Source: a virus. Taken from it: a stretch of 44,227 nt of DNA. The DNA lies in the IMG/VR virus record IMGVR_UViG_3300025736_000054, positions 1-44,227 of that record; one strand, written 5' to 3'. The notes under the pieces are model-generated. The model was not told the origin of the DNA, did no database searches, and saw nothing but the letters and a program-made list of their open reading frames with translations. The translations under genes and the position numbers were made by a program. Positions 636 through 38,208 of the stretch are shown here, piece by piece (the first letter of the stretch is position 1; each line of letters begins with the position of its first letter).

Positions 636-1616
636 TTATCCACAAGCGCTCCATCCACACTCAAGACACATTTTACATCCTTCTTGATATATGATATTTT
701 TTGTATTGCAAGCTTGACAAACTTCATTCTCTATCTTTGTTCCATCTTTAATAAACTTACTTAATAATTTTTTAACATGAAATAAAAATGATGAGAATCC
801 ATCTGGATTTTCTTCTAATATTCCTACTATTTCAAATGCTGGAACATTATGTCTTAGTGCTAATCCAATAGCTCTAGCTATCTTATTTACATTTGTTTGA
901 CCTGAATATTTACTACGTTGTCTTTCAATTAATTCTTCTTTAATACCTTTATTTCTACATAAAGATTCCATATCTTCTATTACTTTACCTGCAACTTCAG
1001 TCGACTCATAAGAGTTTGTATGTACAAACATGGCATAAGGTTTTTGATATTTGCTATCGGCGAATGCGATATTGATATACCACTTCTTCTTATTTTTATC
1101 TCTTCTTATGTATCCCTTAGAATAATATTCTTTTGGTAACTTAACATCTTCTTTAATTACATCGCCATTTGACTTAACAAACATTTCTTCAAGTTCAGAT
1201 TGATATTCATGAGTCTTTTGTTCTTCAAGTACTGCAGTCATTGTATTAGCTCTATATGTAGTTAAGCCTTTAATTTCACTTCTCCAAGCAGTTAAATAGA
1301 GCTCTTTGAAATCATCATAACTATAATGCTCAGGAATGTTTACCGTATTATGAGTTGGAACTCCATTTACTCAATATGAGTGAGACATATCATCTATTTC
1401 TAAATCACCTGTATCAACATCACTAATTAGCTCTATTTTAATAATCTTTTTTGACTCTGGCATAATTAACGAGCGCAGATTAAAAAGATGCTCGTTTGTT
1501 ACTTCATTTCAGTTTAGATGTTTTAAGTCTATTTTTATTTCATCAAGCGTTTTTATTTGTCTATAGTCTAGCGGAATCTTTTTATTGTTCTGACTAATTG
1601 ATTCTAAAATATTCAT
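636..1616 (-). CDS. nrdJ: NrdJ piece 4: intein C-half plus C-terminal part of class II ribonucleotide reductase
   Basis: 326 residues. The first ~90 residues are an intein C-half that ends SHSYWVNGVPTHN (Asn codon 1347-1349). The extein follows directly with TVNIPEHYSYDDFKELYLTAW, which continues the SSK-TVNIP motif of NrdJ. The C-terminus carries C-x2-C and C-x2-C pairs (VCQACN and CKMCLECGWSAC), the cysteine tail used in class II enzymes for re-reduction. Two TGA codons (KHLNW, SYWVN) read as Trp. The ATG at 1616 overlaps the stop of the endonuclease gene at 1594-1596. Predicted role: the last quarter of the reductase, joined in trans to the piece ending at 2827. Confidence 0.85.
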
Positions 1617-2769
1617 AAAATTTCTCCTTATTAAATATTATCTCTTCTGTTATGATAAAAAAATTACTATGTAATTCTTTTATATATCTACCTTTTTCTT
1701 CATTAAATCTTTCTAAAAATATCTTTGGCTTTATTTCTAAAATAAATTGCTCTTCACTAGTTGTTGTAAATATTATATCAGGAACATAACATTTTTTCTT
1801 TTTTTTATCTGTCTCAAAAGTCATATGATACGGCTCTGTCTCAAAGCATGTAACTTTTTCATTTAATTCTAATAATTGTAGAACTTGCAATTCGTAGCTG
1901 CTTCTATAATAAATATCTTTATTGTTTTTTTCACTGAAAAAGTATCCTGTTCTAACTGCGTGTATATTATATCCTCTGTTATATCTCTCAGGATGATTTG
2001 CAATATAATTTGCACTTCTTATACTTATATAAGCCGAATATCACATTTTTGTCTCTTGCGGAGTCATATTCTTTACATCCACTACACTAAACTCCGGAAA
2101 ACTTGACTTAATGGTGTTTCTAACTTTTAAATTAAGCATATTACTTTGTTTCCATTTTAATATATACTTTTCTTTCTCTTCTACAGACTTGAGTCTGTAG
2201 TTTGTTTTTTTAGAATATCCAGATAGCGAAATTAAATCTTGTTTTGATAACTTACTAGTATCAAGTCCTAGTTTTATTGCTATATTTTTTCCTGTGGTCG
2301 CTACTCCATCAACGTATGACAAGTGCAACAGTCTAGCATCATCATGTATTAGTGGATATTTTTTTTTTGCAATACGTATTCTTGATTTATGCGCATTAAC
2401 TATCATTGTATTAGCTAAACCAGGATCACCCTCTCACTTATCTTTTTTTTCTGTAATCATCTTGTGTGATAGACTCTTATTATATCTATTAAAAAAAGCA
2501 TAATATTCCTCTGTATTTATCTTATCAATTTCTTTTTTGTTTGCTAATCAAATTGACACCTCTCACTTATGCTTTTGCTTAGTATTAATATAATTTTGCT
2601 TTAAGAGATTTATTAGCTTCTGCTCTTGATAGAAACTTACTATGCTGTGATCTCTTTTTATAATATTTGCTAATGCTAATATTACTTGCTTATTAACACC
2701 TCTATTATATAATTGTTTTAAGTAGATATTATTATCATCACTCAATGTTTTAAATTTTCTAAATCTCAT
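1594..2769 (-). CDS. Homing endonuclease, PD-(D/E)XK type, between intein halves
   Basis: 391 residues. The C-terminal domain shows YYRSSYELQVLQLL, then CYVPDIIF and EEQFILEIKPK. This is the E...PD...ExK layout of the PD-(D/E)XK fold (TnsA/Vsr-like nucleases). The N-terminal half is basic and helical (TIIKRDHS.. to LSKQDLISLSGYSKKTNYR) and may bind DNA. At least four TGA codons read as Trp. I chose the ATG at 2769, which has GAGAGG close upstream; a TTG at 2808 is possible. It sits exactly between the two halves of intein 3, as expected for a homing endonuclease gene of a split-intein locus. The exact fold assignment is inference from motif spacing. Confidence 0.7.
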
Positions 2770-2791
2770 AAAACCTCTCTTTATCTTTATA

Positions 2792-2799
2792 TATAAATA
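2792..2799 (-). promoter_or_regulatory. Putative promoter element TATTTATA before endonuclease gene
   Basis: On the coding strand this reads CATATTTATATATAAAG, 23 nt before the ATG at 2769. The same 8-mer occurs, in the same orientation, in several other gene gaps of the window (see separate entries). Its repeated placement upstream of genes suggests a promoter, but no transcript data exist. Confidence 0.4.
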
Positions 2800-2826
2800 T
2801 GAAGACAACAGGGCTTTTACAAATAT

Positions 2827-3720
2827 TTATTTCCGTATTACTATATTTTGATCAATCTTTGTATCAATTAACTTTACTCAATGTGAGTTCTCAACAAATA
2901 TTTTATGATTTAGTGTTCCAATTATTGTCGAATTATCACTAAAACTAATCTTTATACATTTAGAATCTATCTTATTGTTATATGTAGATTTTATTTCAAC
3001 TTTATTATTAATATGATTTTTAGTATAAAGTTTATCAGACTCTATAGACTTAAATTCACCACTATTATTAAACTCAAGCTCACTTAAATACACAACCTCG
3101 TCATTTATAATAATCATACTTGAAGACTTTTCAACACACTTACTAGAATTCATGTTCGTATAGTGAGCAATTATTTTCAGCACACTTAAATGATTTTCAA
3201 CTGATAAATCAACTGTAGTTGAAAAAACATCCTCATCCTTATTTAAAAGTGTCCAGGTTATATCTTCATCAGAAAATATATTTGCTTTTACTCAACTCCA
3301 ACCATAGTCTTCAACTAAATTTGCTTTGACCAAGCCTCTACTTTTATCAACTCTATAAGATTCTCCATTAAATTCGCCTTCTAATATTTGTTCATTTGCG
3401 ATAGTTATGAATTTAAGATTTTCTGTTTCAAACCATTCACTCTTCATTACATCTGGAATTATAAATTCACTCTCTGCTAATGCTCTCTTTTCCTCGTCGG
3501 TAACAATAACTCATCTAGTATACTCTTTCATAAATACAGGTTCTATTCCACCTGACACAATGCCGGCAAATATTGAAGTGTTGTGTGAAATAATACCATT
3601 ACCTAATATATAGTGATGAGCATCTTCAACTTCTATATCATACGTATCATCTTTTATAAGCTTGATCTCTGTTACTACTTCTTCAATTAGCTCGAGTCCT
3701 TCTATATTAACTACACTCAT
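2827..3720 (-). CDS. nrdJ: NrdJ piece 3: intein C-half, central extein, intein N-half
   Basis: 297 residues in three blocks. Residues 1-47 are an intein C-half ending DIEVEDAHHYILGNGIISHN (Asn codon 3580-3582). The extein then reads TSIFAGIVSGGIEPVF, the phosphate-binding loop of NrdJ (usual NAPxGNTS...GGIEP), and runs to HYTNMNSSK. The third block is a new intein N-half starting with Cys at 3136-3138 (CVEKSSSMIIINDEVVYLSE). It contains the Hint block IIGTLNHKIF and ends in TAA. Three TGA codons read as Trp. The ATG at 3720 overlaps the endonuclease stop. Predicted: spliced in trans at both ends. Confidence 0.85.
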
Positions 3721-4711
3721 TATTTTCTCCTTCTATAAATTTTTTACATTTTATTAGCACTTTTTCTTTATTATCTCTTCATTCTTTTTCTCAGACGACT
3801 AATGTATCAAATCCGCTATTATTTGCAACCCTTAATTTATATCTATCTTTGTCTCAAAGTCTTTTTGCATCAGTTTTTAATATCGGATGTTTTCAATCTG
3901 ATTCAAATAATAGCGGATTTGCATGTCAAAAATCTCCATTAAACTCTATAATTTTTTTATTTCCTGATTTTATTAATGTAAAGTCAAAAAATAAATATGA
4001 TTTCTTGTTTCTATCATATATTCATCATTCTTTATTTTTTTTTGCATATTTTATATATTTATGAAAGTCATCATGTAACATATCTAAAAGAGAATCACAA
4101 AAACTTTGTGATACTTCTGAAACAGACGTTTTACTAGCACTAGATGATTTTTTTAATAACAGCTCTTTTCATTTTTGGGCACCGATTTCTTGTCCATATT
4201 TTTTAATTCACTTACTAAGTGTTGCTGCATGAAGCTGTTTATTTTTGTTATTTTTATGATGTTTTGATATACTAATTGATTGTTTCTTATTTTTAGAATT
4301 TCATTTTTCCATACCAATCTTTTTACCATATTTGTTAATAAAGTAATCCATATCTCGTCTTTGATAATCTGCATATTGTTTTCTTGCTAAATCATAATCT
4401 CCATCACATATCTTTAGTCAATACGCAAATGCCCTTTTTGTTGTTTCTCTTTTAGTTTGTATATATTCATCTCATCTCTTCTCGCCTGCAATTTTACCAA
4501 GTTGCATAATATATTTTTCTTTTGTATGTTTAGATTTATTTCTAAATATATCATATTTTATTATACCTTCTGGTTCACCATATCTTCTAATAAATCCATC
4601 TAAACTTTGATCAACCTTTAATAAGTATTCTTGCCACAAATTATCTGCGACTTCTTTTGAATTTTCCTCATATATTCTAGTTTTATAAGTTTTATATTTT
4701 CTTTTTGTCAT
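3707..4711 (-). CDS. Homing endonuclease, Vsr-like EDxHD type, between intein halves
   Basis: 334 residues. The catalytic region reads KKIIEFNGDFWHANPLLF, followed by W-D-K-D-R. This is the E...N/D-G-D-x-W-H pattern of the Vsr-like EDxHD endonucleases described with split inteins in 'fractured genes'. The N-terminal part holds short repeats of the form KYGxxIGxxKW, probably DNA-binding modules. About eleven TGA codons are read as Trp, including the Trp of D-F-W-H. It lies exactly between the halves of intein 2. Its SD (AGGAG) is inside the hairpin at 4714-4770. Its end overlaps the start of the next nrdJ piece (AATGAGTG). Confidence 0.85.
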
Positions 4712-4713
4712 TT

Positions 4714-4770
4714 AAAATTGCTCCTACATTACTTTATTATAAATATAAATATCAATGTAGGAGCAATTTT
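4714..4770 (-). promoter_or_regulatory. 17-bp inverted repeat hiding an RBS, with promoter-like loop
   Basis: Perfect 17-bp arms (4714-4730 and 4754-4770; AATTGCTCCTACATT pairs with AATGTAGGAGCAATT) flank a 23-nt loop. The loop contains two overlapping TATTTATA copies and a TATAAT on the coding strand. The AGGAG that serves the ATG at 4711 lies in the downstream arm. Read-through mRNA should fold and block translation. A transcript started from the loop would lack the upstream arm and free the RBS. This is the known T4 I-TevI logic; here it is inferred from sequence. Confidence 0.65.
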
Positions 4771-4776
4771 ATTTAA

Positions 4777-5613
4777 TTATTTTTTTATCAAAATCTTATC
4801 GCCAACTTTTAAATCTTGTAACTCAATTCATTTTGCTCGAGTATCACTTATCTTAACTAAAAGCTTATGTTCACTTGTGCCATCAATTTTATTGTTCATA
4901 TCTGTTTTTATTGAATATACGTTTCTATTATCATTAATATATAATCCTGTAATTCTCTTATTACCTTGTAGTGTAGGAACTTCCAAAGTTTTAATTGGAA
5001 TAAATGATTGGTTCTTTTTTTCTTTTGTAATATCTATTTTATTTTCTTTAAAAATTTGAGAAATAGACTTTACACCTTCTGCTGTTCTTATTTTTGTATT
5101 CTTTCTAACGCAATTCCCATTTGGAGCATTTGCTGAATGACAGCTATTTCTCATTGTTCCAACTGATTCAACTAACGACTTCACTTCTTCTGATATATCA
5201 ATATTCTTTCACCAATAAGTATTAAAATATTCCTTACTATCAAATAACTCAAATGAACCTTTTTCTTCACCAAGCATTGCTGAAGCGAGTAATTCCACCC
5301 CGGCTTTTATTTTGTATATGTCTCTAACCATATCTAATGACTCCGGAGAGCCATATCTAATACCCATCATATAATGTAATGATCCTAATCCCATGGTACC
5401 TAATCCAATTCGTCTCTTCTTAAGCATTGATTCTTTATATTCAGGCAATGGTACATTTGAAATATCATTAATATTATCTAGAAATCTTACAGCAGTTATA
5501 ATTGTATTAATAAACTTTGCAAAATCAAATGATCCATTATCATAAAACTTAACAAGATTTATACTTCCTAAATTGCATACGCCAGTTGACATGAGAATTT
5601 CTCCTAACCGCAA
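4777..5613 (-). CDS. nrdJ: NrdJ piece 2: extein with GEILMSTG motif plus intein N-half
   Basis: The extein reads GEILMSTGVCNLGSINL and runs to MRNSCHSANAPNGN. At Cys codon 5110-5112 an intein N-half begins (CVRKNTKIRTAEGVKSISQ), with Hint block GTSEHKLLV, and ends DLKVGDKILIKK then TAA. Two TGA codons read as Trp (YWWKN, AKWIEL). The start is uncertain. In this frame only a TTG at 5613 precedes the extein, while the ATG at 5693 that overlaps the endonuclease stop, as at the other two junctions, is in another frame and meets TAG at 5604-5606. See the leader entry. Frame upstream of 5613 is closed by TAG at about 5650. Confidence 0.75.
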
Positions 5614-5693
5614 TCGACGTTGAGTGTCGACTGCATATAATAATCCTCCTTTCTATGTGTTATTTTTGGTTTTGAAATATTATTAACTTTCAT
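5599..5693 (-). other. Leader ORF with hairpin and possible recoding site before NrdJ piece 2
   Basis: An ATG at 5693 overlaps the GIY-YIG stop and opens a 29-codon frame ending ...NVDCG then TAG (5604-5606). A second ATG at 5634 has AAAGGAGG 8 nt upstream in the same frame. An 8-bp hairpin (5611-5633, arms CAGTCGAC and GTCGATTG with one G-U, loop ACTCAAC) ends just before TGC-GGT-TAG. If peptidyl-tRNA-Gly moved from GGT (5607-5609) to GGA (5602-5604), the product would read Cys-Gly-Glu-Ile, the expected NrdJ active-site sequence. A simple -1 shift would give Cys-Gly-Leu-Gly-Glu instead. An assembly error or a decayed junction is also possible. Confidence 0.45.
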
Positions 5694-6612
5694 TTGCTTT
5701 TATTAGCTCCTTTTTAAAATTTTCAATTGTTTCAAAATTCTTCAATATTGATTTTATTGAAAATTGTATATTTTTTGCATTAAATTTTTTCTTTAAATCT
5801 AGCACTTTCTCATTATTGTTACTTTTTAATAAAGAAATAAAATAATTAATATCAATATTATTTCTTTTTATGAAATTAATTGGAATAAATTTTATTCCTT
5901 CTTTAACTGATTTTCCGTGCTCCTTTCTTTTGCTTTCTGTTCATCTCTTTTTCTGAGAGGCTGATTGTTTTTTTATATACAACTCTCAACTCTCTTTATC
6001 TTCTTTCCGACTTTTCATTGCTATCTTCGATCTCTCTGAGTGAGCATCTTTTTCTTCTTCTGTTCTATTATTATAAAATTTAATTAAAGCAAATTTAGTT
6101 TTATCTCTGTTTCTTATGCTGCTATAGTATTTCTTCATAGTAATAGAGTGTTTTGGATTTTTAACTCCAAGCTTTTTTCTTGAAAGACCTTCTCTGTTCT
6201 CGCTATTTTGAAAATATGCTATTCTAATATTGCTCATTTTTTTAATAGCTGAAGACGAGTGTTTTTTTCCATACATTCCGTTATTTTTTCCAACCCTTTC
6301 GCATTTTAAGCACCGCTCTTTATAGTCTGGCGAACTCGTAATTGTGTCACCGCCGTCCCCGCCAGCTGTAATATTATATCCGATATTGCGGTTTTGAGAA
6401 TTAAGTTTTTTAATTCAATATCTTTCTGCTTTGTTCAACTCTTTAGAGCTTAAACATTCACAAAGCGTTTCTTTTTTAAAATTTTCTATTCCGTATTTAT
6501 TGATAGCAAGATTTAATATCTTACCGGAGCCGAGGTAATTATTATTATTTTTAGAATCTTTGCCAACATAAATTTTACCATTAATTAAGTTTGTGGTTTT
6601 ATAAATTATCAT
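5683..6612 (-). CDS. GIY-YIG homing endonuclease
   Basis: 309 residues. The N-terminal GIY-YIG domain shows IIYKTTNLINGKIYVGK, then a conserved Glu region and RYWIKKLNS, followed by GYNITAGGDGGDT. This is typical of the phage Seg / I-TevI / NUMOD class. The C-terminal part is basic, with NUMOD-like repeats (NNGMYGKKHS.., ..KNPKHS) that bind DNA in relatives. Three TGA codons read as Trp, including RYWIKKL. It lies between NrdJ pieces 1 and 2, so it is the mobile partner of the first interruption. The ATG at 6612 follows AAGGAAAATTAAAT. Confidence 0.85.
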
Positions 6613-6676
6613 ATTTAATTTTCCTTAGTACACTCATTAGATATTTTAATGTCTATTGGAGCCTGTACTCTTTTAT

Positions 6677-6684
6677 TATAAATA
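6677..6684 (-). promoter_or_regulatory. Putative promoter element TATTTATA before GIY-YIG gene
   Basis: The coding strand reads CTATATTTATAATAAAAGAG, with an embedded TATAAT, 65 nt before the ATG at 6612. The element lies just after the stop of NrdJ piece 1 (6705). A partial hairpin (AGTACA...TGTACT) lies between it and the gene. It matches the elements at 2792, 4738/4744, 28620, 35103 and 42662. Confidence 0.4.
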
Positions 6685-6704
6685 TAGTAACTCAATTATT
6701 TTAT

Positions 6705-8204
6705 TTAATAAATTTCATCGTTTTCATCTAAATCTATAGCAAATTTTTGTTGTCCATTGTCAACATCTACTACATCATATATGTAAAATCTTTCTATGTT
6801 ATTTACCAAAACAGGCTCCGTGACTATATATTCGTCGCGATTTATTAAACTAAAAAAGTTATAATTTGGAACAGCTGTTAAATCATATACATCTTCCTTC
6901 TTTTCGGTCTTTTCTATTCTAACAATTGCTTTTAGTTTCCCATCAGCACCATTAACAGACGGAAGCGTTGTTGTTTTACCAGCTTTGTACTGGTCATATA
7001 TATTACCAACACACAACTCATTGAACGACTTTCCATATAGTTTATGTTTGTAGTTAGTTAGAATATATTCATTATTTTCAAAGCAAACTTTATATATTTC
7101 ATCATCCTTTTGAGTCATCCACACTCTCTTTAACTCTGAATTATACAGTTTTTTGTCTTTATCTATTGTTATAATAGTTAAATTCTTAATCTTATTTTTC
7201 TGCTTTTCTAAGTTTTTAATTTTAATTCACCCAACGTTAGTGAAGACAAGAGTATCTCCTACTACACAGGGATTTGAAGTAGCTATATTTTCACAATAGT
7301 TAACAGGATTCAACTTGTTTGCTAAATCAAGAAATAAAACTCCAGGTTCGTTTCTGGTATAAGTTGCAGTCATTATCTTATCTCAGAGATCTTTAACTTT
7401 AATTGTCTGATAATTAACTCTCGGATAACCTTTATTGATCCATTTTTGATAATCTCCCTTTCATTCTGTTTTATATTGAGGACAGGAAGTATCTGGAAAT
7501 GATAATGTTCAGAGTATCTCTCCGCGACCAGCATCGTCAATAACAGCTTTAATAAACTCTGCATTAATTCCTACCGATAAGTTAAATTTAGTTAATCTAT
7601 TAGGAGTTTGTTTAGCTTCTATAAAATCAATAATGTCAGGATGCCAGACTTCTAGAATACCCATCTGTGCTCCTTTTCTTATCTTCTTTTTTTCTTTTCC
7701 CTCATTACCATCTTTAAGTACTTTAGTCGTACCAGAAGTAATAATTTCAGAAGACTTATCTCATAGCTCCATAAATTTTAATACACCAGGAGTTCTTATT
7801 CCGGTTCCTTTAACATAAGTCCCCTCTGGACGAAGTCAGCTGAAATTCATTCCATATCCACCTTCCGATGCTAATGTTTTTGCTTGTGCTTTTAGTAGAG
7901 TATAAATTCCATTTATTGAATCTGGATCTGAAAAATTATCTAAATCTTGAGGCGAATGTGCAAAGCAATTCATTAATGTTGTCTCTTTTTTATCAGGTGC
8001 TCCAATGTTTGCCATTATTCTTCCGCCTGGCACAAAATTCCAATCTTCTAAAATATCATAAAATTTGTCTCTTCACATATCAGGCTGTGTTTCTACTGCA
8101 GAAGCGGCAGTTGCTATTCGTAATCAAGTATCTTCAATAGCATTATCTATACTAAGTTTATAATTCTGCTCTCATATTGTCTTTTGAAATTCATTTGTAA
8201 ACAT
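6705..8204 (-). CDS. nrdJ: NrdJ piece 1: N-terminal class II ribonucleotide reductase plus Hint/intein domain
   Basis: 499 residues. The extein (first ~312) has class II / NrdJ hallmarks: FVPGGRIMANIG, MNCFA, EGGYGMNFSW, RKGAQMGILEVWHPDI, ending ENIATSNP just before the catalytic Cys. The Hint domain begins at Cys codon 7266-7268 (CVVGDTLVFTNVGW). It has a block-B-like NYKHKLY and a terminal-block-like DVYDLTAVPNYNFFSL, then VLVNN and a 27-residue tail. No extein follows it. The terminal His-Asn is Asn-Asn, so how it splices to piece 2 is unclear. About nine TGA codons are read as Trp. The ATG at 8204 overlaps the helicase gene's stop region. Role: deoxyribonucleotide synthesis for phage DNA. 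Confidence 0.85.
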
Positions 8205-8211
8205 ATAAAAA

Positions 8212-9582
8212 TTACTCTTTTTCCTTTTCTTTGTTCATATTACCCAATTTCTGAGCAATCAATCTTCTTACATATTCGTTACCATTACCTTGTTTTTTCG
8301 ATTCTTCTAGATCACCTCTAGTGCCTACATCGTAAATAGATATTGCACCATTATTAGCATTAAAGCTGGCTTTAAATGTCATACCATCTGCGCCAAATCT
8401 ATTCTTAATAATATGTATTCTACTAGTACCTGCTAACTTATCTTCAATTTTTCTTGATATTGACATAACGAAATCTGCAGTCATTACTTTTTTATAAGAA
8501 TCTGCAATATTCTCTGCAACTATTACATCTTGTTCTTGTGCACTTCTATTACTTTGACTTCCAGTTCAACCAGGTTTTCCAATTAGTGTTAAGAAACCAC
8601 GCATTTCTTCATATATTCTACCACCTATATGATAACTACTTTGCATATGCTTTGATAAGGTAGTAGTTAGAAGATCGCCATAATCAATAATAATAAGATC
8701 TGGTTCAAAACCTAATGACTTTAAAAGATTATAATGAGCTTCTAATGTTGCAACAGTTGCGATAGTAGCTGGATATTGCTTAACAATTAGTAATTTCCCA
8801 TATTGATCAACCAACTCCTTTACTTCATCTTTATGATATTTTAATTCTTTAAAAGGATATCCTGATATTATACTATCATATCTCAATCCTACATAATTTT
8901 CACTAAGTTCAAGAGTATAGTGTAATACTTTCTTTCCCGCTTTTACTGCTGCCGCTCCCAGATATGCTAAGAACCATGATTTTCCAGAACCAGGACCGCC
9001 TACTATTACTCCAAGTTCACCAGCACCAATGCCGCCAGATAGTAAATCATCAATTACTGGTCAAGATGTTAGTACACATTTTCTAAGAGATTCATTATAT
9101 CTATCTTCGAAATCTTCGAAATAGTCATGACCAATATCTCTTTCTACTCCAGCATTACTAGCTTCATTAATAACGTGTCTTATTTCTTCATAATTTTCAT
9201 CTTGAAGAAGCTCTATAGAATCTAACAATGCTTTTTTGAGTACTTGATTCTTTAAAAAAGCAAGAGTTTTGCTTTTAACATAACTTAGATCGCTAGATTT
9301 AAAGTGCTTATTTATATCTTGTATATGTCTTAAGACGTCAGTTTTTAGTTCTTGAGACTCAATATTCGATAACTCCATTTTTATTACATCGAATGTTATA
9401 GTATCTTTGTACTCCGCATAATAATCAAGTGATTGATTTGCTAATCATTTAGCAGCATCTGATGTAAAATATTGAGATCGAATAATATCAGCAGTTTGCT
9501 TAATAAATGGCTTATCAGATATTAGCGTAACTAATAGCTTTATCTGAAAGTCATATCCATATGTACCTAAATTATTTGACAT
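8212..9582 (-). CDS. Replicative DNA helicase, DnaB/gp41 family
   Basis: 456 residues. A helical N-terminal domain is followed by a RecA-like SF4 core: TSWPVIDDLLSGG, Walker A VGGPGSGKSW near residue 196, HYTLELSE, Walker B DLIIIDYGDLL, and the GWTGSQSNRSA segment. This matches T4 gp41-type hexameric helicases. Three TGA codons are Trp, including the conserved T-x-W-P-V-I. It would unwind the fork ahead of the polymerase and load primase. The ATG at 9582 overlaps the stop of the exonuclease gene. No separate primase gene is seen in the window. Confidence 0.88.
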
Positions 9583-12597: not shown

Positions 12598-13404
12598 TTA
12601 CTTCTTTTCAGCCTTCATCATTTCATCAAATTCAGAGAATATTTTCTCTTTATCAAATGCTGGAGCAGCTTTAATAGAAGCTTCTGTACTCGTATCAGCG
12701 GCAGTTTTTTCATCATCGCTATCTGGATTTAAATAAGCTTCTAAAACTTCTGTTAGTTTTTCATAACTAGTTTCAGGATAAATTTCAGTAAGATCTGGCT
12801 GCTCATCTAACAATTTCTCCAAAAGCTTTGGATCATTTGTTAATATGCTAGACTTTCTCTTAGGTCTAACACTAATCTTACCATATATATTTCCTACAGT
12901 TGAACCTGATTGCTTTTCAACTACTATATCAGTTCCTGTTTCCGTATGTGTAATATCACCATAGTCAGGATCGCTAATGAGTTTAAGAAGCTCTTCATAT
13001 ACAGTGCTTCCAATACCCCACATCTTTACTCCGGCATTCTCTTCACCACGTACAACTACAGGTACATATGTTCTCTGTGTTGGCATTAGTTTTCTTGATA
13101 ATTTTCAATTTTCTTTATCTCCAGCTGAAGCTAATTCATCAGCTGCTTCTACAAACGGATCTGCTTTTCCATAAGTTGCTGGTGATAAGAAATATTGGTT
13201 GCCTTTTGCTTTACCATAATGGAATTTCAATTCCGTAAATGGCATAGATGGATTGTGTTTATAAGGTAATAGTCTGATTGTTGTTGAGGAATCATCCTCT
13301 GGTCTTCATAAATAATTTTTCTTTGAGTTCTTGTTTTGTAAGCCCGCAAGCGTAGCTTTAATGGCATCTAAATCGATACCAGCAATTTGAGTTTTACTTT
13401 CCAT
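12598..13404 (-). CDS. Single-stranded DNA-binding protein, gp32-like
   Basis: 268 residues. The match to the T4 gp32 family is clear: NYLWRPEDDSSTTIRLLPYK, FHYGKAKGNQYFLSP, ENWKLSRKLMPTQRTYVPVV, VRGEENAGVKMWGIG and SDPDYGDITHTETGTDI. The usual Cys zinc site of T4 gp32 is not visible. The C-terminus is acidic and then ends EFDEMMKAEKK, the tail that in T4 contacts other replication proteins. Two TGA codons fall on conserved Trp (LWRP, NWKL). It coats single-stranded DNA and works with the helicase, UvsX and polymerase. The A-rich leader upstream may mediate autoregulation. Confidence 0.9.
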
Positions 13405-13527: not shown

Positions 13528-13622
13528 CAGCCCGTGAAGGATTTGAACCCTCTGGTGAAGCTTTGGACACCTCACATGATTTTGAAGACCATCCCCAGAG
13601 CCATGGCTGGGTCTAACGAGCT
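13528..13622 (-). tRNA. UGA-decoding tRNA, anticodon UCA, long variable arm
   Basis: 95 nt without encoded CCA (the sequence after G73 is CCG). Acceptor AGCTCGT pairs with ACGGGCT (one G-U). The anticodon arm is ATGGT-CTTCAAA-ATCAT with UCA at its centre. The variable region is 23 nt and forms a 6-bp arm (GTGAGG/CTTCAC). The T arm is GAGGG-TTCAAAT-CCTTC. The D arm is atypical (CCCAG/CTGGG). A1-U72 and G73 agree with tryptophan identity, while the long arm recalls tRNA-Sec or tRNA-Ser. Because in-frame TGA sits at conserved Trp positions, the charged amino acid is most likely Trp. Confidence 0.8.
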
Positions 13623-14492: not shown

Positions 14493-15842
14493 CTAATTTA
14501 TTTTCTTTAGACTACCATAATTAATTCCATATTTAGTAGTATAAGAATAGTTTCCTTGATTAATAATTAAACCTATGTTGTCAAGTAATTCTTTTCCGTC
14601 ATCCAGATTATAATCAAACAAAAATGAATCATATGTATATAGTACCAATTTAGTTTTATATCCTTTAAGTAACTTTAATAAAGCACTGATAATTATCATA
14701 TTTCTCTCTGTTTCAAAATATTGAATAAAATAATTTAATAACTTGTTTCGTTCAATTTTACAATATTTAACTCCTTGGAAGAGATCAGTATCAAATACTA
14801 CTGACCTGACACCCTCATGGACGTTAAACTCATCCCACAACATACGCTCATAACCTTTAACTTTATTTATAAATTCTATTTCAGATGAATTATGCCCAGT
14901 ATCTTTTCCATACATTAATTGAAAAGACATTTGCTTGGCTTCTTTTATTTGCTCATCATTTGGTATATCTATATTAAAATATTGAGATGCCATATATTTA
15001 TGTGGTGATATGTCATCTGGAAATTTATAGCCTGTTAGATCCGCAATTAGTTGTAAGTGATAAGCTTCATAATCATATTCTATTAATAGTCCTCTATTAT
15101 GAAAGCTACTAATATACTTATCTCTTGTTCCATCTGATTTATTAAGTCCGGCGTAATTTATTCCATTCCATTTGTTTGAAGGCCTTCCTGTTGTAGTATG
15201 AATATTATATGAAGTATAATCAAATTTGTCTTTATCTGAATTAAATATTCCATTAGCTTCTATATTTGCCAAGGATGGTATCATAATATCATCATGGAAT
15301 TTGCTTTTCTGTTTGTAACGTTCATTGCAAAAGCAACTCAAACCAAGATTAAAAATATTTTTCACTTCTTTAAACAATATAGCTATTGAACCTAATGAGA
15401 GATAATAAGAAGATTTATACATGCGATACTCACTGTATACTAACTCATAACATATATTAATTGTAGTTACAATATCACGGCTTGGTCTTTTTATATTTAA
15501 ATCATATACTGAATCCACGTCACTATATCTCTTTATTGCATGCATTAATAGTTTCTTTTCATCAACATAGACTTCATAATCTCCATCAAACAAGACATTA
15601 TTGAATACATCTATATCTACACCTTTAACTCCATAATAATTAAAGAACACAACATATTTAAGTTCTGGATTTTCAATATCTATAATAAAACAAAACGTCA
15701 TATTATTTGATTTTTCTGCTGGATTGATTATTTTAAGATATTTTAAGATTGGAAATACATAGATTTTACGTGGATCATCTCTACTAAAAACCTCTAGAAA
15801 TGCAATTGTATCCGTTAATGAAATCGGATTATGTAAAATCAT
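14493..15842 (-). CDS. Family-A DNA polymerase-like protein, short form
   Basis: 449 residues. The C-terminal half carries family-A polymerase motifs: TTTGRPSN (216-223), motif A IEYDYEAYHLQLIA (about 254-267, first catalytic Asp), motif B EAKQMSFQLMYGK (301-313) and motif C YTYDSFLF (403-410), where the usual HDE is YDS. The N-terminal 190 residues show no clear 3'-5' exonuclease; FCFIIDIENPEL could be a degenerate remnant. It contains no TGA codon, and Trp is coded by TGG only. T4-like phages normally use a family-B polymerase, so this may replace it or be an accessory enzyme. Start at 15842, 13 nt after the preceding stop. Confidence 0.75.
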   Translation of the reverse strand: MILHNPISLTDTIAFLEVFSRDDPRKIYVFPILKYLKIINPAEKSNNMTFCFIIDIENPELKYVVFFNYYGVKGVDIDVFNNVLFDGDYEVYVDEKKLLMHAIKRYSDVDSVYDLNIKRPSRDIVTTINICYELVYSEYRMYKSSYYLSLGSIAILFKEVKNIFNLGLSCFCNERYKQKSKFHDDIMIPSLANIEANGIFNSDKDKFDYTSYNIHTTTGRPSNKWNGINYAGLNKSDGTRDKYISSFHNRGLLIEYDYEAYHLQLIADLTGYKFPDDISPHKYMASQYFNIDIPNDEQIKEAKQMSFQLMYGKDTGHNSSEIEFINKVKGYERMLWDEFNVHEGVRSVVFDTDLFQGVKYCKIERNKLLNYFIQYFETERNMIIISALLKLLKGYKTKLVLYTYDSFLFDYNLDDGKELLDNIGLIINQGNYSYTTKYGINYGSLKKIN

Positions 15843-15854
15843 AAACTACTTCCT

Positions 15855-16982
15855 TTAAATTTGTATATATTCTTTAAGTCTATTAACTGGTATTACTGGT
15901 ATTGTAAGATTAACTAAATTTTCAAGATTCTCTCAATTCTCAATATTAACTATAACGCCCGAAGCTTTGCAATGGAATATAGCATAATCATTAAAGCTAT
16001 TAAAATATATTAACTTCTTTTCAAAATCACCCAATTCATCAGTAGACAAAATGAAACAACTATATTTTTCTCCATCATAATATATACAATTAGATCCATC
16101 TCTAACTATATCAATAATTAACCGTTGAAAGTCATCTATATTATTGTTATCATATTCTATCACATACAAAGTAGCAATTCTTCCTAAATCCATTTCATGC
16201 TGAGTTCCTGTAAGAATTCCTACGTTATAATTAATATAAGGTAAATTGAATAAATCGTAACTTTTTTTTAATATATCAGCTCTATTTTTATTACTATCAT
16301 CATTGAATAGACTATATCCAGAATTTAATAAGTCATTTATTTTTGTATATCAATCTTCATTAAGTTCATTATTTGCTATAGTTGTGTTACTATATACTAC
16401 ATCATTATACTCTTGAACTAAGGAATATTGACTTAAATTTGAATATAAATACTCTAATCCGTTGAATTCAGCATTATCAATTTCTCTCTTATTCTTTGTA
16501 GTAACTCCCTCAACTACTATACTATTTATTTCCGTATCTTCTACTTCATTAATATCATCAGTAATATATCACTTTAATTCGCACTTCGTATAGTATGGAT
16601 GACGATCTAAATCTCTAAAATTAGTTTCATCTATTTCAGTAATTTTCTTTCCTTGAATATCACTATCTGGCTTTGCAAAGTATCGATTAATATATCCATT
16701 TGATATATCACTATTACTAACAATAGGTGTTGACGGTTTTAAGTCAACTCAATTATGTAATGAATAACTACTACCTAATCTATTATAAGTTAATATTTCT
16801 ATTTGCTCATCATACAAATCTGATATTGGTATTACTTTAACTAATTGTTCGGAGACATTAAAAATAAATGATTTGCCTGTAAATCAATATCCAATAAGAT
16901 CAACATGATATGGTCCTATGTATCATTCACGTGTAGATATTATCTTAAACTCATTACCAGATGTATATAGATTTTGTTTCAT
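15855..16982 (-). CDS. Hypothetical, probably baseplate or tail protein, 375 residues
   Basis: I do not recognise the family. Its ATG shares bases with the stop of the large baseplate gene (TAATG), so it is coupled to the tail cluster. It is rich in Tyr, Asp and Asn, with several beta-type stretches (EWYIGPYHVDLIGYWFTG; NCIYYDGEKYSCFIL). Six TGA codons read as Trp. No transmembrane segment or signal peptide is visible. The position at the end of the structural block favours a baseplate or fibre-attachment role. Confidence 0.6.
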
Positions 16983-19045
16983 TAATTATCTCCTAATAAA
17001 GCACCAGTATATGCATTAAAGTTTTCAACTGAGTCATCTGCTTCATATAGTATTTTAGCATTCGATATTTCTGAGCTTGCAAATTTTTTAACTATTAATT
17101 TTATTCTCATTAATCCTGTTATTTCAGTTGTTCATGAATCCTTACCAATTGAATGCTTTACATCTGTAATTTGAAAATATGTAAATAATTTAAAATCATC
17201 ATTATCGATATTATATCTAGATGGAAGATAATCAACTGTAAATATATTACCATAGTCAAACCCTGATACCCCATCCATTGTTAAAGTAAGCTCTATTGGT
17301 ATTAATCTATTATTCATTTCCTGATTATATTTTGTATGATTTTTATCATCATCGTTTTGCAATCTCTTTTTCCATTCGGAATAAAATCTTTGATTTATTT
17401 TTTTCTTAGTATTAGACTTTATATTTTTATCTACTCAATCTCTTCTTTGCTCTGTGGTTCCATCAAAAAGTCCTGCTGCAAATTTTGCCTTATTCAAAGT
17501 TTTTGTTCACCAATTCTCTTTCTTTTTAGTATATTTATTTCTATCACTTGTACTACTCTTATCACTAATATACTCATCATAGGTATCGTAATTACTACCA
17601 TAGAGCCCTTTAATAATATGTAGACCAAATTTATTATTGTCAATATTCTTTGACATCATTGCAGCTGTCTTAAAGCTATCTGGAATATTAGATGCCATAC
17701 TATAGCTCCTAACTATAGAGTTTCTTTTTAGTAATTCAAAAACATAAACTAACGATTCATCTATTTCGCCAGTTTCAGCGTCATTATGTATTTTCTTTAT
17801 ATCAATTAATTTTGTTGTATTTTTTCCCTCTGGTGTTTCATATTTTAATTCAAAGTAATTTAAACAAGAAGAGTTAATTTTTTCAAGAATATAATCTATA
17901 GCTTCAGATAGCGTTGCATTGTTTAAAATAGCATCTTTAATTACATTTGTATTAATTAATATATTTGAAACAACTCCGGTAGATAAGTTTTCTCTATTTA
18001 AAAAAAACCCTGGTATAATTATATTTTTATCAGTGGTTGATACAACATTTTGATATTCTAAAAAACCCGGTAAGATACAAATATCTGGTTGCATTGATCT
18101 TAATAGTGGATGTGATCCTACTAGAACATCTTCACTATCAAATTTGTCATAACTAAGTGTCTCGAAGAATCTTGAAATTACATTTTTCTCAAACCATCTA
18201 AGAGTTACGTATTTATCTGTTCCTCCAAGAAAAGGTATAATACTACTATCTGCAATACCAAAGACTTCCGCATCTTTATTTGCTAGCTCTCTATTTAATA
18301 AATTTGTTCAAGCTTCACTTTCCATATAATCTATAATAGATGATCTATCTATTTCATCAGTATCTTCTGTATCTTCCACTTTTTGAGCTAATATAGAATT
18401 TCCTGGTGACATTATTTCTAAAGATATATCAAATCCTAAGCTTTCATTTCCAGTTCAACTAAAATTTACAACTCTTCCAACAAAAGCATCTCAATCGCCA
18501 TTAGAATCTCTTCTCTTTTCCTTTAGCCTATCATAATTAAATATTTCTTCTCTCTCATCTTCTATTTTTACAAAACTACTCATACCATCTTCTGTTGCTC
18601 AACCTCACTGTATGACTATAGAACCCTGAACATTCATAAACAAAGCTTCTATCATCTCCAAATCACTTATAGTTCAGCACTTTAATGATATATCTGCTTT
18701 TCTAATAGAGCCAAATGTACCTTCTAACGCAACACTTAAAGAATCTATACCAGGTACCGGTCTAAATGGCTGTGCAGTATCTCTTTGAGAAAGCATATTT
18801 TCAAAGCCGCCAAGCCCTTTATTAATTGCTCCTAAGAAAAGATATTGAATCCTTGGCTCCTCATTAAATTGATCATTTCTATACTCTATACAAGAGTGCA
18901 TTGATATCCAGGGTGTTTTTGAATATAGAGATAGCATCTCAGCAGACTCTAATCTTGCTTCATTATTATTGTAATTTAGTAATCTCTTTCTTTTGTCAAG
19001 TGCAACTCTAACCTTTGTCGATACGTGTGAACCGAATATTGCCAT
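16982..19045 (-). CDS. Large baseplate structural protein, 687 residues
   Basis: The protein starts MAIFGSHVSTKVRVALDKRK. It holds DISLKCWTISDLEMIEALFM and VIQWGWATEDG, a segment common in myoviral baseplate proteins. It ends with SWTTEITGLMRIKLIV, like the last strands of hub or wedge proteins. About ten TGA codons read as Trp, two of them in Q-W-G-W. It follows the LysM-like baseplate gene by 10 nt and overlaps the next gene. It probably belongs to the baseplate hub or inner wedge; the exact T4 equivalent is not clear to me. Confidence 0.7.
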
Positions 19046-19055
19046 AATTTATCTC

Positions 19056-19337
19056 CTACAACTTTGATAATATATCAATATAATTAGCTGGGATTCTTAT
19101 TCTTAATCCCGGTTCTATAAATATAGAATCACAATTGACATACTCTTGATTTGCGCGAGCTATTATTCATCATAAATTTTGATTCTTATAGTATTTCCAA
19201 GCTAAAGAGTCAAGTCTATCTCCCTCTCTAACTACTATATAAACATCTGATTCGCTCTCTTCTATTATAGGAATATTAAATGTTGCATAACTTTTTCCAT
19301 TATTTTCTACTTTAGTATTTTTATATCTACTTATCAT
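19056..19337 (-). CDS. LysM-like baseplate wedge protein (gp53-like)
   Basis: 93 residues. The sequence has the baseplate LysM pattern VVREGDRLDSLAWKYYKNQN, then LWWIIARANQEY, and a final LRIRIPANY. In this family the double Trp of Y-W-W-V-I-A is strongly conserved, and here both are TGA (TTA-TGA-TGA-ATA). That makes the gene one of the best single proofs of the code change. T4 gp53 and related proteins join wedge subunits. Stop is TAG. Confidence 0.8.
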
Positions 19338-19346
19338 AATTCTTTT

Positions 19347-21227
19347 TTAATTTGACTCCTTCATTCATTCTTCAGTAACACCGTCGATATGTGACATTAT
19401 TGATCTTGGTATCTCGTGATATAATGGTGTAAAGTCTGCTGTGAATTCAATATGCTTTGGTAATCTTAATATATCTATTCCGGTATCTATTTCTCAAGGT
19501 GAGCCGTCTGGATATGATATTGTTAAACTAGAAAAGTATCCTGGCATATCTATTAATAAATCAGCTAAAGTGAGCTTTATTATAGGAGCAGTCATAATAC
19601 CATTTTCATAATTTGGATATTGTAGTCCCATCAAGTAATTTATCTTTGTTCAAATAGGCTTAAATTCACTCTTAGAGCCGATGTAAACGTTCCATGCTAT
19701 ATTATACGTTCTCTTTACTCCAGTATAAACAGGAAATGATTCAGGTCTTCCTATATAGCTTATATCATTCCATTCTCCAGAAATAGAATCTGTAATTGAA
19801 GTAATTGCTGCTCTAAATATAATATACATATTATTATAAATATCGTAAATTTTAAATGGAATAATATCTTTTAAATCAGTTGTAAGATCATCTTTTCCAT
19901 ATGGATGTAAAGAAATCTTATCACTGGCACCAACTCCATAGTCGGCAAATCCAAAGTTCTTTACAGCACTCTGAGAATCAGCATTTGTTTCAGTCTTATC
20001 ATGAGGCTCTGAAGTAAGTGTTCCAGCATACATTTTAGGCAAAACTATATTATCTCCATAAGCTAATTCAGCTCGAGTTCATTTTCTCGGATATACTCCT
20101 TTGTATTCTTTATCTATATATCTTATTCCAGAAGAGTCGTCTGTAGATATTCCTACCTCTCCAGTGGTAGGATTTCCAGTTTCGCTTTTAGTTGTGCCGA
20201 TGAAAGCTTCAAGTAATGAAGCATTACCCTTCTTAATATCGGTTCCTGCAGCAAATGATTTTAAAGAATCATTTGTATTATGTTTATTATAATCCTCAAT
20301 TACTCTGTCTTGATCTTTATTTGCTAAACTAGTTCTTTCAGTCTCTATTCACTTAGAATAAATACCTTCACCTGATCCTAAGCTAAATCCTAATAAACCT
20401 TCACCTGTTGTTCTTACTATATGTATTGCTGGCACAGCAGAGCCGATTGCTGAAGCTAAATTATATGCTCTAGTATTATGTCTTGTATTAAATGATTGTC
20501 ACAAAACTTGTTTTGCAACCCATAATAACCCTTTAGGACTTACTAGTCACTTTCCTACTCGTTCAATGTCTTCTATTGTTGAGCCAAAGGGAAGCATCCT
20601 ACTATCATATGCTTTAATTTTTGTAGATTCATTAGTACTTATTATATATGGATCAGACGTATCTATTGTTCAGCCAGAAAATGAATCATTTTGAGACATT
20701 TCTCTAATTTTATATTTAGAAGCAAATTTTCAATACGGCATTGAATGTCTAATATCTTCATCAGGAGTCTTTCTATTGTCATATGAATCATTAATTATAG
20801 ATATGCTATGATCATAATCTGGACCTGTATTATATGCATCCTCTCAATCTCAAAGTGACGTACCTGGCTGTGAAAACGATTCTCAAGGTTTTCCGTCAGG
20901 TAACTTATTACTCTCATGTATTGTAAGTAGTGGTGATGTCGTAGTATTATATGTTAGATGAGTATACAAATCCGTAAATGAAGGAGGAAATTCATCTTTA
21001 TAACTGTATAATCCAGCTCACTTTTTCCCTCCAGGTAGTACTCCAGACTTATAAGATGATTCAATTGGAAGTTCAAAACCGCTTGTTTTAAATCTTGGAT
21101 ATAGTTCACTAAACGTTGGAGGAAACTCTTCATTGTACTTATATATTCTTCAAGTATTAGTACTATACAAATTTAATATGCTAACTCTAGAATAATTCTT
21201 ATCTATATTTTTTTTATTTTTATTCAT
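19347..21227 (-). CDS. Large tail/baseplate structural protein, 626 residues
   Basis: The C-terminal third resembles tail proteins of marine T4-like phages: RTYNIAWNVYIGSKSEF, KINYLMGLQYPNYENG, IKLTLADLLIDMPGYFSSLT and DGSPWEIDTGIDILRLPKHI. The N-terminal region carries two related segments (YKYNEEFPPTFSELYPRF and YSYKDEFPPSFTDLYTHL), an internal duplication. About fourteen TGA codons read as Trp. The ATG at 21227 lies 6 nt after the tape-measure stop. Probably a baseplate component assembled on the hub; its precise role is not known. Confidence 0.7.
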
Positions 21228-21232
21228 CTTTT

Positions 21233-23686
21233 TTATGCCTGATTATATGATGGTATTAAATCTGCAATAGCTTTATTTATTTTCTTACCATCTATGTTTA
21301 TATTTTTAGTTTTTGAAGTTACAACGATTAGTTGTTCAAGTTTATTATTTAGGCTTTTCAATAAATCAATATTTTCTTTATTTACCACATTAGTGGATTC
21401 TTTATTACTTTGTTTTGTCGCACTTATTTTATTACTTGATATCATTTCTGGCTGTATAGCTTTTATTAGTGGAGATAAAACTGCGCCTACTGTACCTATA
21501 GCAATCGTAGATGCAGAAAGAGCTGCCAAGCTAATTGCTAAAGTTGTAAAAACAGATGACATTGTTAATAAATGTCCGAAATTAATACTCATTAATTGAC
21601 TAAGTCCATTCGCAAGCATAATTGCTCCATATCCAGCTGCTGACATTGCCGTTCCAAATATAAGTAGAGAAACACCCATTGCTGCAAATACTCCAGCACC
21701 TATAAGAATTGGTGCTCACAGCAAACTAATTCCTGCCATAAGACCAGCTAAACCAACAATTGCTACTCCTGCCAATGCTAATTGTTTTCAATCAACTTTA
21801 ACGAATTCCTGAAGTGCTTTAGCTGTAACTCATAATGCACCTGACATAATTACTAAAGCAGCTGCGCCCTTAATTAAATTCGTTGGATTCATACTCATTA
21901 ATCCACCTTTTTTACCGGCGCCCTTAGCAACATTCAATCCCATTTGAGCAGTGGTTTCTGAATTTATTGCTGCAACATTTGCACTATGTAAGGAGACTTC
22001 TGCAGCAGTAGCTGCATTTAATCCCATTTTAGCTGCAGATCACATAATAAGTTTAGCAATCATTCTAGGAATAAACGTTACAAAATCTAAAATTAAGCTT
22101 CCGCTTTTCTTAGCCATTACTGAAAAGGCGCCAAGGCCTTGAGTAACTTCTGATATGTTTCCTGCTAATGATACTCAGAATCCAATATTTTCTTTAGTAG
22201 CAAATCTCTTAATCGTTGATCCGATCCCTGTCATTATTTTTGCAGTCATATTATTTTTCTTATTATATTCACCAGTAAGATTACCTAAATTCTCTTGATT
22301 TGCAACCATAGTTTGTAATTTATCAACTGATAATCCCATTGCTCCAGCTAGAGCTTTTCGCTGAATAACATTCATACTATTAAACTCTTCAAGTGAGCCA
22401 GCTTGCTTAACCATCTCAACCATAGCTTCATCAGTTTTACCTGCAAACATTAACTCTCTCGCTTTCTGTAAATTAATCTGTTTACCAAGTAATACCGAAG
22501 CTTCAAGTTCACCTCTAATAGATGATTCTATATCTAATAAACCTTCTGTTGCTGATGCTACATCTGACATCTCTAATCCGAGTTGTCTAGCATGAACTGC
22601 AAACTTAATCATATCCTTTCCACCATCAGAAGTATATTTTGCAATAAACTCAGAATTTGCAGCAAGGTCAGCCATAACAGTTGATGGTATTACATTTGAT
22701 ATATTTGAAAACTCAATTGTAAATGCTTTTAATGATTTGACTGTTTCAGAAGTTCCATCGGAAATATTACTAAATGTCTTTAATAGCTCAACTGCTCTAT
22801 CTTCTGACATACCATAGAACTTCTGTAATTCAATAGCGTCCGTAACGAGAGACATATGCGCTGTTTTAAGACTACCAAATTGTTTACCTATCTCCTTCAT
22901 TATCTTTCAATTATCAGTTCAACTTGCGCCAAATTTTAGACCTGCTTTCCAGCCAGTTCATAATTCACCTGATAAATCAATAACGTTACCAATACTTAAG
23001 CCCATTTCTGTAAACATTTCTTTAGTAGTACCGTAAGCGCCTTCTAAATTCTTTCTTAGAGATAGAGCTGCCGTTGCTCCAAACACTAAGGGTTCAGATG
23101 CTATATCAACTATTTTTTCTTTAAGTTGTGAAAATAGTTTTGCTGTTCACTTGACTTGCTTATTTACTTCTGCTTGTTGCATTCCCTGCTCTGCAACTGC
23201 CGCTTTTACCTTATTGAGCTGCATTCCTTCATCTTTAAATAGCTGTGTTACTCTTGCAAGTGATTGCTCTTCTCGTTGTAATAATCGAAGCTTTTCATTT
23301 AAAAGTTCAATAGACTCTTCACTTCCACTATTTACAGATGAGTTAAGATTAATAATTTCTTCTTTTAAATTATTTATTCTACTTAATTGTGATTCTTCTA
23401 TAACACTAAATCTCGTATTTAAAAGCTGATTATTTAAATCTGTAGTTGCTAATCCGATTTCTTTATATGTCTTCTCTAATTCTTTTCAATGATTACTTTC
23501 ACTAGAAATTAGCTCTTGCTTCTTCTTAAGCTGTACTAATGTAAGTTTACCCAATCTATCTCGCTGAGCATTATATTGAGACTCAATTCTTTGAGCTTTT
23601 TGAAGATGCACCTTATATTGTGCAGTATAGAGCTTCTGCGCTTGCATTTGAGCTATTGAAGAAATATTTGTGTCATCTATATTCAT
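21233..23686 (-). CDS. Tail tape measure protein
   Basis: 817 residues. The N-terminal 200 residues are coiled-coil (Gln/Lys/Glu-rich, NAQRDRLGKLTLVQLKKKQE). The middle has amphipathic helices with the tape-measure pattern (LKTFSNISDGTSETVKSLKA; IRGELEASVLLGKQINLQKA). The C-terminal third holds several hydrophobic helices (LAGVAIVGLAGLMAGISLL; FTTLAISLAALSASTIAIGT). Length, layout and position after the tube and chaperone-like genes fit a tape measure that sets tail length and enters the host envelope. Ten TGA codons read as Trp, for example SLLWAPIL. Confidence 0.85.
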
Positions 23687-37201: not shown

Positions 37202-37849
37202 TTATCTTATGAATCATTCATCTACACCATTAGATTTAAGCGTTATTGCATCTCCATCACCAGAAATAACAATTGATGAAGAGTTATTTGCTTTTTGACT
37301 TCCTGACGCATTGACTGTGACATTGTATAACGATGCACTAAATGAAACATCTCCCACATTACAAGTTCATCCTGCTGGTACATCTGAAGCATCAAATAGT
37401 TGAACCGAGCAACTATTAGCTGAAGTATCAACATCAACATAATAATCTGTAGTTAACAAATCATAAGTATCAGATACTTCAGTATTGGCAAATTGATTAT
37501 TTCACTCTCAACTACCAGACTTAGAAGTTAAATCGCTTGCAGCTGATTCCCAGCTACCAGACTTAGAAGTTAAATCGCTTGCAGCTGATTCCCAGCTACC
37601 AGACTTAGAATTAACATCTGTTATTATTAATTCCCAGGAGCCTGATTTACTTGTTAAATCTGCCGCTGCATCAGTTCATGATCCTGATTTTGATGTCAAA
37701 TCAGAAGCAGTATCATCTCAACTACCTGATTTTCCTATTAAATTTGTTGCATTAATAGCACTATTATCTCAACTTTGAGATGTAGCTAATACCTTGGTTG
37801 TTATGCTATCTATTTGCGTACCCGTATGGGTTGACTTATATTGTGCCAT
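37202..37849 (-). CDS. Virion protein with 14-residue SKSGSW repeats
   Basis: 215 residues. It starts MAQYKSTHTGTQIDSITTKV, like its paralogue at 38209. A central block holds six units of the form SxxSDLTSKSGSWE. The Trp of the units is coded TGA, TGG, TGG, TGG, TGA, TGA at 37508, 37550, 37592, 37634, 37676 and 37718. The C-terminal part is a beta-type domain (CNVGDVSFSASLYNVTVNAS; SSIVISGDGDAITLKSNGVD). Seven TGA codons in all. Likely a fibre-like or decoration protein with an extensible stalk; function inferred only from location and repeats. Confidence 0.75.
37508..37730 (-). repeat. Tandem 42-nt coding repeats (14 residues each)
   Basis: Units of 42 nt. Two copies (37512-37553 and 37554-37595) are identical; the others are diverged. 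A 51-nt stretch at 37680-37730 is identical to 38660-38710 in the paralogous gene. The copies use TGA or TGG at the same Trp position. Confidence 0.9.
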
Positions 37850-37862
37850 TTATTTTTTATTC

Positions 37863-38009
37863 CTATGGTTCTACTACATTAATATCTTCACTATCAACTG
37901 TTAAACATTTCTCTAAATCAGACATATATAAGGTGTCGTATCCAACTGGTACAAGTTCAATTATCATTTTATTTAATGATATTAATCCGATTCCTAAGCT
38001 TAGTGTCAT
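37863..38009 (-). CDS. Small hypothetical protein, 48 residues
   Basis: Reads MTLSLGIGLISLNKMIIELV then PVGYDTLYMSDLEKCLTVDS and ends EDINVVEP-TAG. Its start follows the stop of the 62-residue gene by 7 nt. No Trp. Unknown function. Its place between two paralogous virion proteins and the coupled spacing support it as a gene, though it could be the remnant of a longer frame joined to its neighbour. Confidence 0.5.
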   Translation of the reverse strand: MTLSLGIGLISLNKMIIELVPVGYDTLYMSDLEKCLTVDSEDINVVEP

Positions 38010-38016
38010 TTTTAGT

Positions 38017-38205: not shown

Positions 38206-38208
38206 TTT

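Follow-up and report, generated by a model that had tools for sequence, protein, structure and literature searches.

The window, by which we mean the whole 44,227-bp stretch of viral DNA analyzed, is an IMG/VR virus record and a fragment of a genome. Nearly all its genes lie on the minus strand, and in-frame TGA codons are numerous. By gene content it is a T4-like phage, encoding a Gp23 capsid protein, sheath, tail tube, portal and prohead protease, together with gp32, a RecA-like protein, a DnaB-like helicase and ribonucleotide reductase. The best-covered named relatives of the sheath are the Flavobacterium phages immuto, at 49% identity, and a megablast search of positions 10000–34000 against phages gave no match. 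The gene for the large subunit of ribonucleotide reductase is in several pieces (636–8258), which are separated by an intein-like segment and by an ORF (5683–6612) for a homing endonuclease. Downstream of the tail genes there are five large ORFs (14493–23686) with up to 14 in-frame TGA codons each, and these have no Pfam or PHROGs match. The tRNA gene that is the subject of this study lies between the gp32-like gene (12598–13404) and a 115-codon ORF.

An earlier note on this DNA had described a tRNA with well-paired acceptor, anticodon and T arms and anticodon UCA, and such a gene is present at 13622–13528 on the minus strand, with A1 at 13622 and G73 at 13528. The acceptor stem has 7 bp including one U-G pair, its 5′ strand AGCTCGT (13616–13622) pairing with 13529–13535; the 3′ strand ACGGGCT and the discriminator G73 occupy 13528–13535. 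No 3′ CCA is encoded, and the genomic sequence after G73 is CCG. The D arm (13594–13611) is odd, with a 5-bp stem CCCAG/CUGGG and an 8-nt loop CCATGGCT placed behind a 4-nt linker TAGA, and inspection by eye of the related loci L526, L317 and L210 indicates that it is also paired there, with other letters. The first anticodon arm, ATGGT-CTTCAAA-ATCAT (13576–13592), has a 5-bp stem and the loop CUUCAAA, with the anticodon UCA at 13585–13583. The T arm, GAGGG-TTCAAAT-CCTTC (13536–13552), has a 5-bp stem. Between these two arms is a variable region of 23 nt, GTGAGGT-GTCCAAA-GCTTCAC-CA. It contains a second hairpin (13555–13575) with a stem of 6 bp, or 7 if the U-G closing pair is counted, and a 7-nt loop GUCCAAA that displays CCA at 13566–13564. 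The minimum-energy fold draws all five arms, the second with 7 bp and the loop GUCCAAA, so that the class II character assigned to the variable region (23 nt, 6-bp stem) is seen in both the sequence and the predicted fold. A better class I fold, in which the variable loop is short, would have refuted this description, but none can be fitted between the anticodon and T arms.

Taken alone, the fold is not exceptional, with a z-score of only −1.34. ARAGORN detected no tRNA in the window, and blastn with the tRNA gave short, weak matches only. The gene is not a chance structure: an identical copy exists in another viral contig (L215), a diverged copy in a further one (L526), and the searches yielded some 40 more distinct relatives.

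We examined the meaning of UGA in the window by placing X at each TGA and aligning the window proteins by tblastn to 160 loci, using columns from alignments of 30–90% identity. Trp accounts for 867 of the 1251 residues at TGA columns, the remainder including Phe (164), Tyr (80), Ser (11), Gly (5) and Cys (2). At the TGG columns that served as control it accounts for 860 of 1369, gaps and TGA being excluded in both cases. It is the commonest residue in 18 of the 26 TGA columns that have at least three sequences. The single in-frame TGA of the major capsid protein gene (32259–33830, minus strand) corresponds to Trp in 82/82 homologous segments, and the four in the tail sheath gene (25597–27315, minus strand) are mostly opposite Trp. 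Because the TGA columns align with Trp, we conclude from these comparisons that UGA is Trp in this phage. The codon read by the window tRNA is then that expected of a tRNA-Trp. A tRNA-Ser would have to read a serine codon, and this is not the case; serine, cysteine and glycine were all dropped as meanings of UGA on the counts above. The suggestion that a class II body with UCA inserts Trp is thereby upheld, although charging itself is inferred. As a separate observation, two adjacent proteins encoded at 37202–38778 have repeated SGS-(TGA) motifs, such that a UGA-coded Trp recurs in the repeat.

The loop of the variable arm, GUCCAAA, closely resembles the anticodon loop CUCCAAA of tRNA-Trp (anticodon CCA). 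Of the 48 member loci scanned, 13 also have ordinary tRNA-Trp genes, always with GUCUCCAAAAC around the anticodon, and the U33-CCA-AA of tRNA-Trp is thus reproduced in the variable loop that the window tRNA carries. In the wider family, 43 variable arms contain UCCA, and their loops are GUCCAAA in 22, CUCCAAA, the exact tRNA-Trp loop, in 17 and UUCCAAA in two. We define a two-anticodon tRNA as one having a 7-nt variable-arm loop that shows the anticodon of the inserted amino acid, and the window tRNA conforms to this. The long variable arm is a Trp-type anticodon arm, which probably accounts for its presence and which the earlier note had overlooked.

The association was also found when the variable arm was disregarded in the search. 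A first pattern without a variable-arm condition matched at least 120 loci, and among the matches listed there were ten class II UCA tRNAs, all with UCCA in that arm. A complete scan of viral sequences on the same basis gave 96 stretches and 53 distinct folded UCA tRNAs, after 30 matches that do not fold as tRNAs had been left out. UCCA is present in the variable arm of 39 of the 40 that have a 7-bp acceptor stem and G73, and in none of the 13 of Sec type. The latter include L536, L555 and L586, classed by eye since G73 lies one base further on; our script had called them non-Sec. All 39 UCCA relatives have G73, and their first pair is A1-U72 in 31, G1-U72 in five and G1-C72 in three. There are exceptions. 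L568 (2932–2984) has A1-U72, G73, the 7-bp acceptor AGGGGCT and a long variable region, but lacks UCCA, and L182 has UCCA with no hairpin in that register. We also read the arms blind, taking in each case the longest-stemmed hairpin with a 7-nt loop. U33-CCA was read in 44 of 60 UCA class II tRNAs, a set in which Sec types are included, as are loci that had been retrieved by means of TCCAAA. The controls from these loci, 124 tRNAs for Leu, Ser or Tyr, never gave U-CCA. A cellular source was considered and set aside, since a scan of cellular contigs (at least 119 stretches) gave, among the matches listed, only the Sec-type tRNAs L399, L467 and L416. The same-species contigs from which L003 and L004 come gave no tRNA match, the pattern matching in other sequence only.

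The second stem is conserved as a helix. In 41 distinct arms 93.7% of cells are paired, against 55.1% in shuffled alignments, and the covariation is 0.998 against 0.247, with none of 500 shuffles as high. Both sides vary at all five pairs, and sliding the alignment by one column reduces pairing to about half. This alignment retained 41 of 44 rows: L399 and L467 were omitted as cellular Sec tRNAs, and L182 because it has no hairpin. Here and in the corresponding Gln alignment discussed below, the removal of rows raises the pairing percentage. The segments in both were chosen by TCCA or T[CT]TG, and the invariance of these letters is therefore by construction. Only the stems and flanking letters constitute a test.

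Could the molecule be a tRNA-Sec or a Sec-like species that inserts selenocysteine or serine at UGA? It shares the UCA anticodon, long arm and G73 with tRNA-Sec, which is also its sole match in Rfam (RF01852). The earlier note had foreseen that software might give it this name, and this is true of the relatives: in the 48 member loci ARAGORN called 45/45 UCA tRNAs 'tRNA-SeC'. Yet the Rfam covariance-model score is 35.5 bits, below the gathering score of 47. The acceptor and T stems are of 7 and 5 bp, rather than the 8-bp acceptor with 5-bp T stem of tRNA-Sec. The 13 true Sec tRNAs from the complete viral scan described above have no CCA arm. Sec would be expected at rare UGA sites, whereas UGA is frequent in the window and aligns with Trp, Cys and Ser being almost absent. 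We have therefore rejected a true tRNA-Sec, and regard this reading as scarcely tenable.

Outside the window, the pooled TGA columns of 49 other loci of the family have Trp in 94 of the 218 that show a residue, with Tyr in 22 and Phe in 11; in many of these loci, the stretch examined offers few TGA columns. In L095/L096 and L577 the tRNA is present (loop GUCCAUA) with no clear recoding of UGA in the stretch examined, and the one TGA column of L095 is not Trp.

A similar arrangement occurs in suppressors of UAG. For class II tRNAs whose anticodon is CUA, a complete scan gave 74 stretches and 61 distinct folded tRNAs; the variable arm contains T[CT]TG in 37 of them. The second loops are mostly CUCUGAA, sometimes CUUUGAA or UUUUGAU, i.e. 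CUG or UUG, the anticodons of tRNA-Gln, following U33. Many of the remaining CUA tRNAs are short-armed. Counted by commonest residue, the UAG columns of loci with a Gln arm give Gln (54), Lys (27), Glu (22) and Asn (14), and CAA/CAG columns in the same comparison behave alike (Gln 337, Glu 108, Lys 107, Asn 51). One such tRNA is that of phAss-1 (L605:606–696; OQ749652 62445–62532), with the Gln loop CUCUGAA in its variable arm. According to the available part of the source, phAss-1 reads UAG as Gln (PMC10607447). The evidence for the second stem is weaker in the Gln branch. Pairing is 71.5% against 47.1% when shuffled (26 of 27 rows kept, L632 being omitted), the blind procedure read CTG or TTG in no more than 12 of 49, and for the phAss-1 tRNA the predicted fold favors a 4-nt loop in the variable arm.

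The two arms can be dissociated in one phage. L681 (IMGVR_UViG_3300028805_000058; with G009) combines the anticodon CUA with a second arm GAGGU-GUCCAAA-GCCUC. If the amino acid is determined by the second arm, Trp is to be expected at UAG in this phage. We examined three further 20-kb stretches of it. UAG makes up 1.21% of codons in a late-gene stretch (L695), where UGG is 0.39% and CAA+CAG 3.76%. In an early stretch (L694) the corresponding values are 0.27%, 1.25% and 3.42%, and the third stretch (L696) is intermediate at 0.36%, 0.71% and 3.99%. UAG thus rises where UGG falls, and Gln codons hardly change. Among the 37 UAG columns of L681 and G009 the commonest residue is Trp in 16, Tyr in six, Phe in four and Gln in none, and several of these columns have Trp in phAss-1, whose own UAG is Gln. 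From these alignments UAG appears to be Trp in the L681 phage, and to be concentrated in late genes. Homing-nuclease searches gave no usable long alignments. Comparison of L681 with tRNAs of the phAss-1 type indicates that one decoding anticodon, CUA, can be associated with two amino acids told apart by the second arm. In all three combinations, UCA with CCA (Trp), CUA with CUG/UUG (Gln) and CUA with CCA (Trp), the inferred amino acid follows the second arm and not the decoding anticodon.

We must consider whether the second arm is needed for charging at all. In the available part of the source, the elements used by bacterial TrpRS are the discriminator base, the anticodon CCA and the first pair of the acceptor stem (PMC9976931), and the G73 and A1-U72 of the window tRNA match this identity. 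The Trp-like acceptor end proposed in the earlier note is borne out, and these elements might suffice for charging by themselves. Trp could then be attached by virtue of the acceptor end and UCA loop, with the second arm serving stability, the binding of modification enzymes or shielding from a host nuclease, for example. Moreover, class I tRNAs with UCA occur in other phages, 14 distinct folded ones in a separate scan, so that the second arm is not obligatory. (Those of L590–L604 have G73 or A73, and represent a single-anticodon solution to the same problem.) But if the acceptor end were the whole explanation, the U-CCA in 39/40 of the UCA tRNAs, the U-CUG/UUG in suppressors that read UAG as Gln, and the combination of CUA with CCA in a tRNA for Trp would all be left unaccounted for. 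We therefore consider this explanation unlikely, though it retains some plausibility.

Our preferred interpretation, in which we have considerable confidence, is that the window gene encodes a suppressor tRNA with two anticodon arms, of which one would serve the ribosome and the other the synthetase. The UCA arm in the normal place would read UGA on the ribosome, and the second arm would display CCA in a 7-nt loop built like that of tRNA-Trp. A change of anticodon to UCA would be expected to harm recognition of CCA, and we infer that the CCA of the second arm would restore it. Together with G73 and A1-U72, it would let the host TrpRS accept a tRNA with an altered decoding anticodon. UGA in phage genes could be translated as Trp without a new synthetase because of this acceptance by the host enzyme. 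The protruding arm might enter the anticodon pocket, or a conformer might place the CCA arm under the D stem. Sequence analysis shows both hairpins, the conservation and covariation of the second arm, the reading of UGA as Trp and the correspondence of amino acid and second arm in the three combinations. That the tRNA is expressed, that the host enzyme charges it by way of the second arm, and how the two dock are inferences; we have no aminoacylation, expression or structural data. Since the window is a genome fragment, another suppressor tRNA is possible elsewhere.

Some features are shared with known tRNAs. Phage Sup-CUA and Sup-UCA tRNAs are likewise phage-encoded, read a reassigned stop codon and are presumed to use a host synthetase. 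They include that of the recoded phage phAss-1 (PMC10607447) and the theta-ribozyme-linked tRNA-Sup (PMC10879173), and in the accessible portions of these sources a second anticodon arm is not mentioned for either, although the phAss-1 tRNA does have the Gln loop noted above. Bacterial tRNA-Trp(CCA) has the same A1-U72 and G73, and its loop CUCCAAA is copied in the second arm of the window tRNA. However, it has one anticodon arm and a variable loop of 4–5 nt, in contrast to 23 nt with a 6–7-bp stem, and the window tRNA is for the same reason not a class I tRNA-Trp(UCA). Besides its 8/5 acceptor/T arrangement, tRNA-Sec differs in its variable arm and in inserting Sec. As far as partly available accounts go, selC* tRNA-Cys and allo-tRNA have a Sec-like shape, and selC* may have UCA and A1-U72, but they have an 8/4 or 9/3 acceptor branch, U73 for Cys and no second anticodon loop described; the window tRNA is 7/5 with G73. 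A tRNA-Trp(CCA) with a 4-bp anticodon stem also reads UGA as Trp, but by means of the shortened stem and with one anticodon arm, on what is accessible of PMC13092985. No natural tRNA with a synthetase anticodon in the variable arm was found in the full-text literature searched, which was available in part and covers subscription journals and preprints sparsely (PMC7609411, PMC10607447, PMC10879173, PMC9976931). An earlier report elsewhere is possible, and we propose the two-anticodon suppressor tRNAs as a family.

The simplest origin of the second arm would be a tandem duplication, within a tRNA-Trp, of its anticodon arm, an inference confined to one subgroup in which 3–4 nt separate the second arm from the T stem, the spacing that follows a class I anticodon arm. 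In a blastn search with L267, the 3′ portion that begins with the second arm matches ordinary tRNA-Trp(CCA) genes of phages, those of Proteus and Aeromonas among them. L681 has an ordinary tRNA-Trp 8 nt upstream of it, which shares its T arm and the unusual G1-U72 end and has a near-identical acceptor stem. The spacing in the subgroup, and the minimum-energy fold of L267 in which both arms appear, would also be compatible with two decoding modes, alternative folds placing either arm under the D stem such that UCA reads UGA and CCA reads UGG. We think this very improbable, given that U34 of a UCA anticodon should already wobble to UGG, and that an ordinary tRNA-Trp(CCA) is also encoded in those 13/48 member loci, mostly short stretches. 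The two-anticodon tRNAs as a whole may have more than one source. The same kind of second arm is joined to D arms of very different sequence, and two stop codons, two synthetases and several tRNA bodies are involved; this suggests that they arose repeatedly, though we have no tree.

In the tRNAs known so far, the codon is read by a single anticodon, which many synthetases also take as the mark of the amino acid. The coupling of decoding and charging in a single anticodon limits the reassignment of codons. In the tRNAs described here the two functions appear to be physically separated on one molecule. It is probable, though less secure than the assignment of the window gene itself, that this reflects a general principle, in which phages split the decoding and charging anticodons over two arms and the second arm assigns a stop codon to Trp or Gln. 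If so, it would explain how stop codons can be reassigned despite host synthetases that demand the original anticodon, and the inserted amino acid could be read from the variable arm. Mis-annotations as tRNA-Sec and tRNA-Pyl would be corrected, and the phages would provide a natural design for engineering the genetic code.
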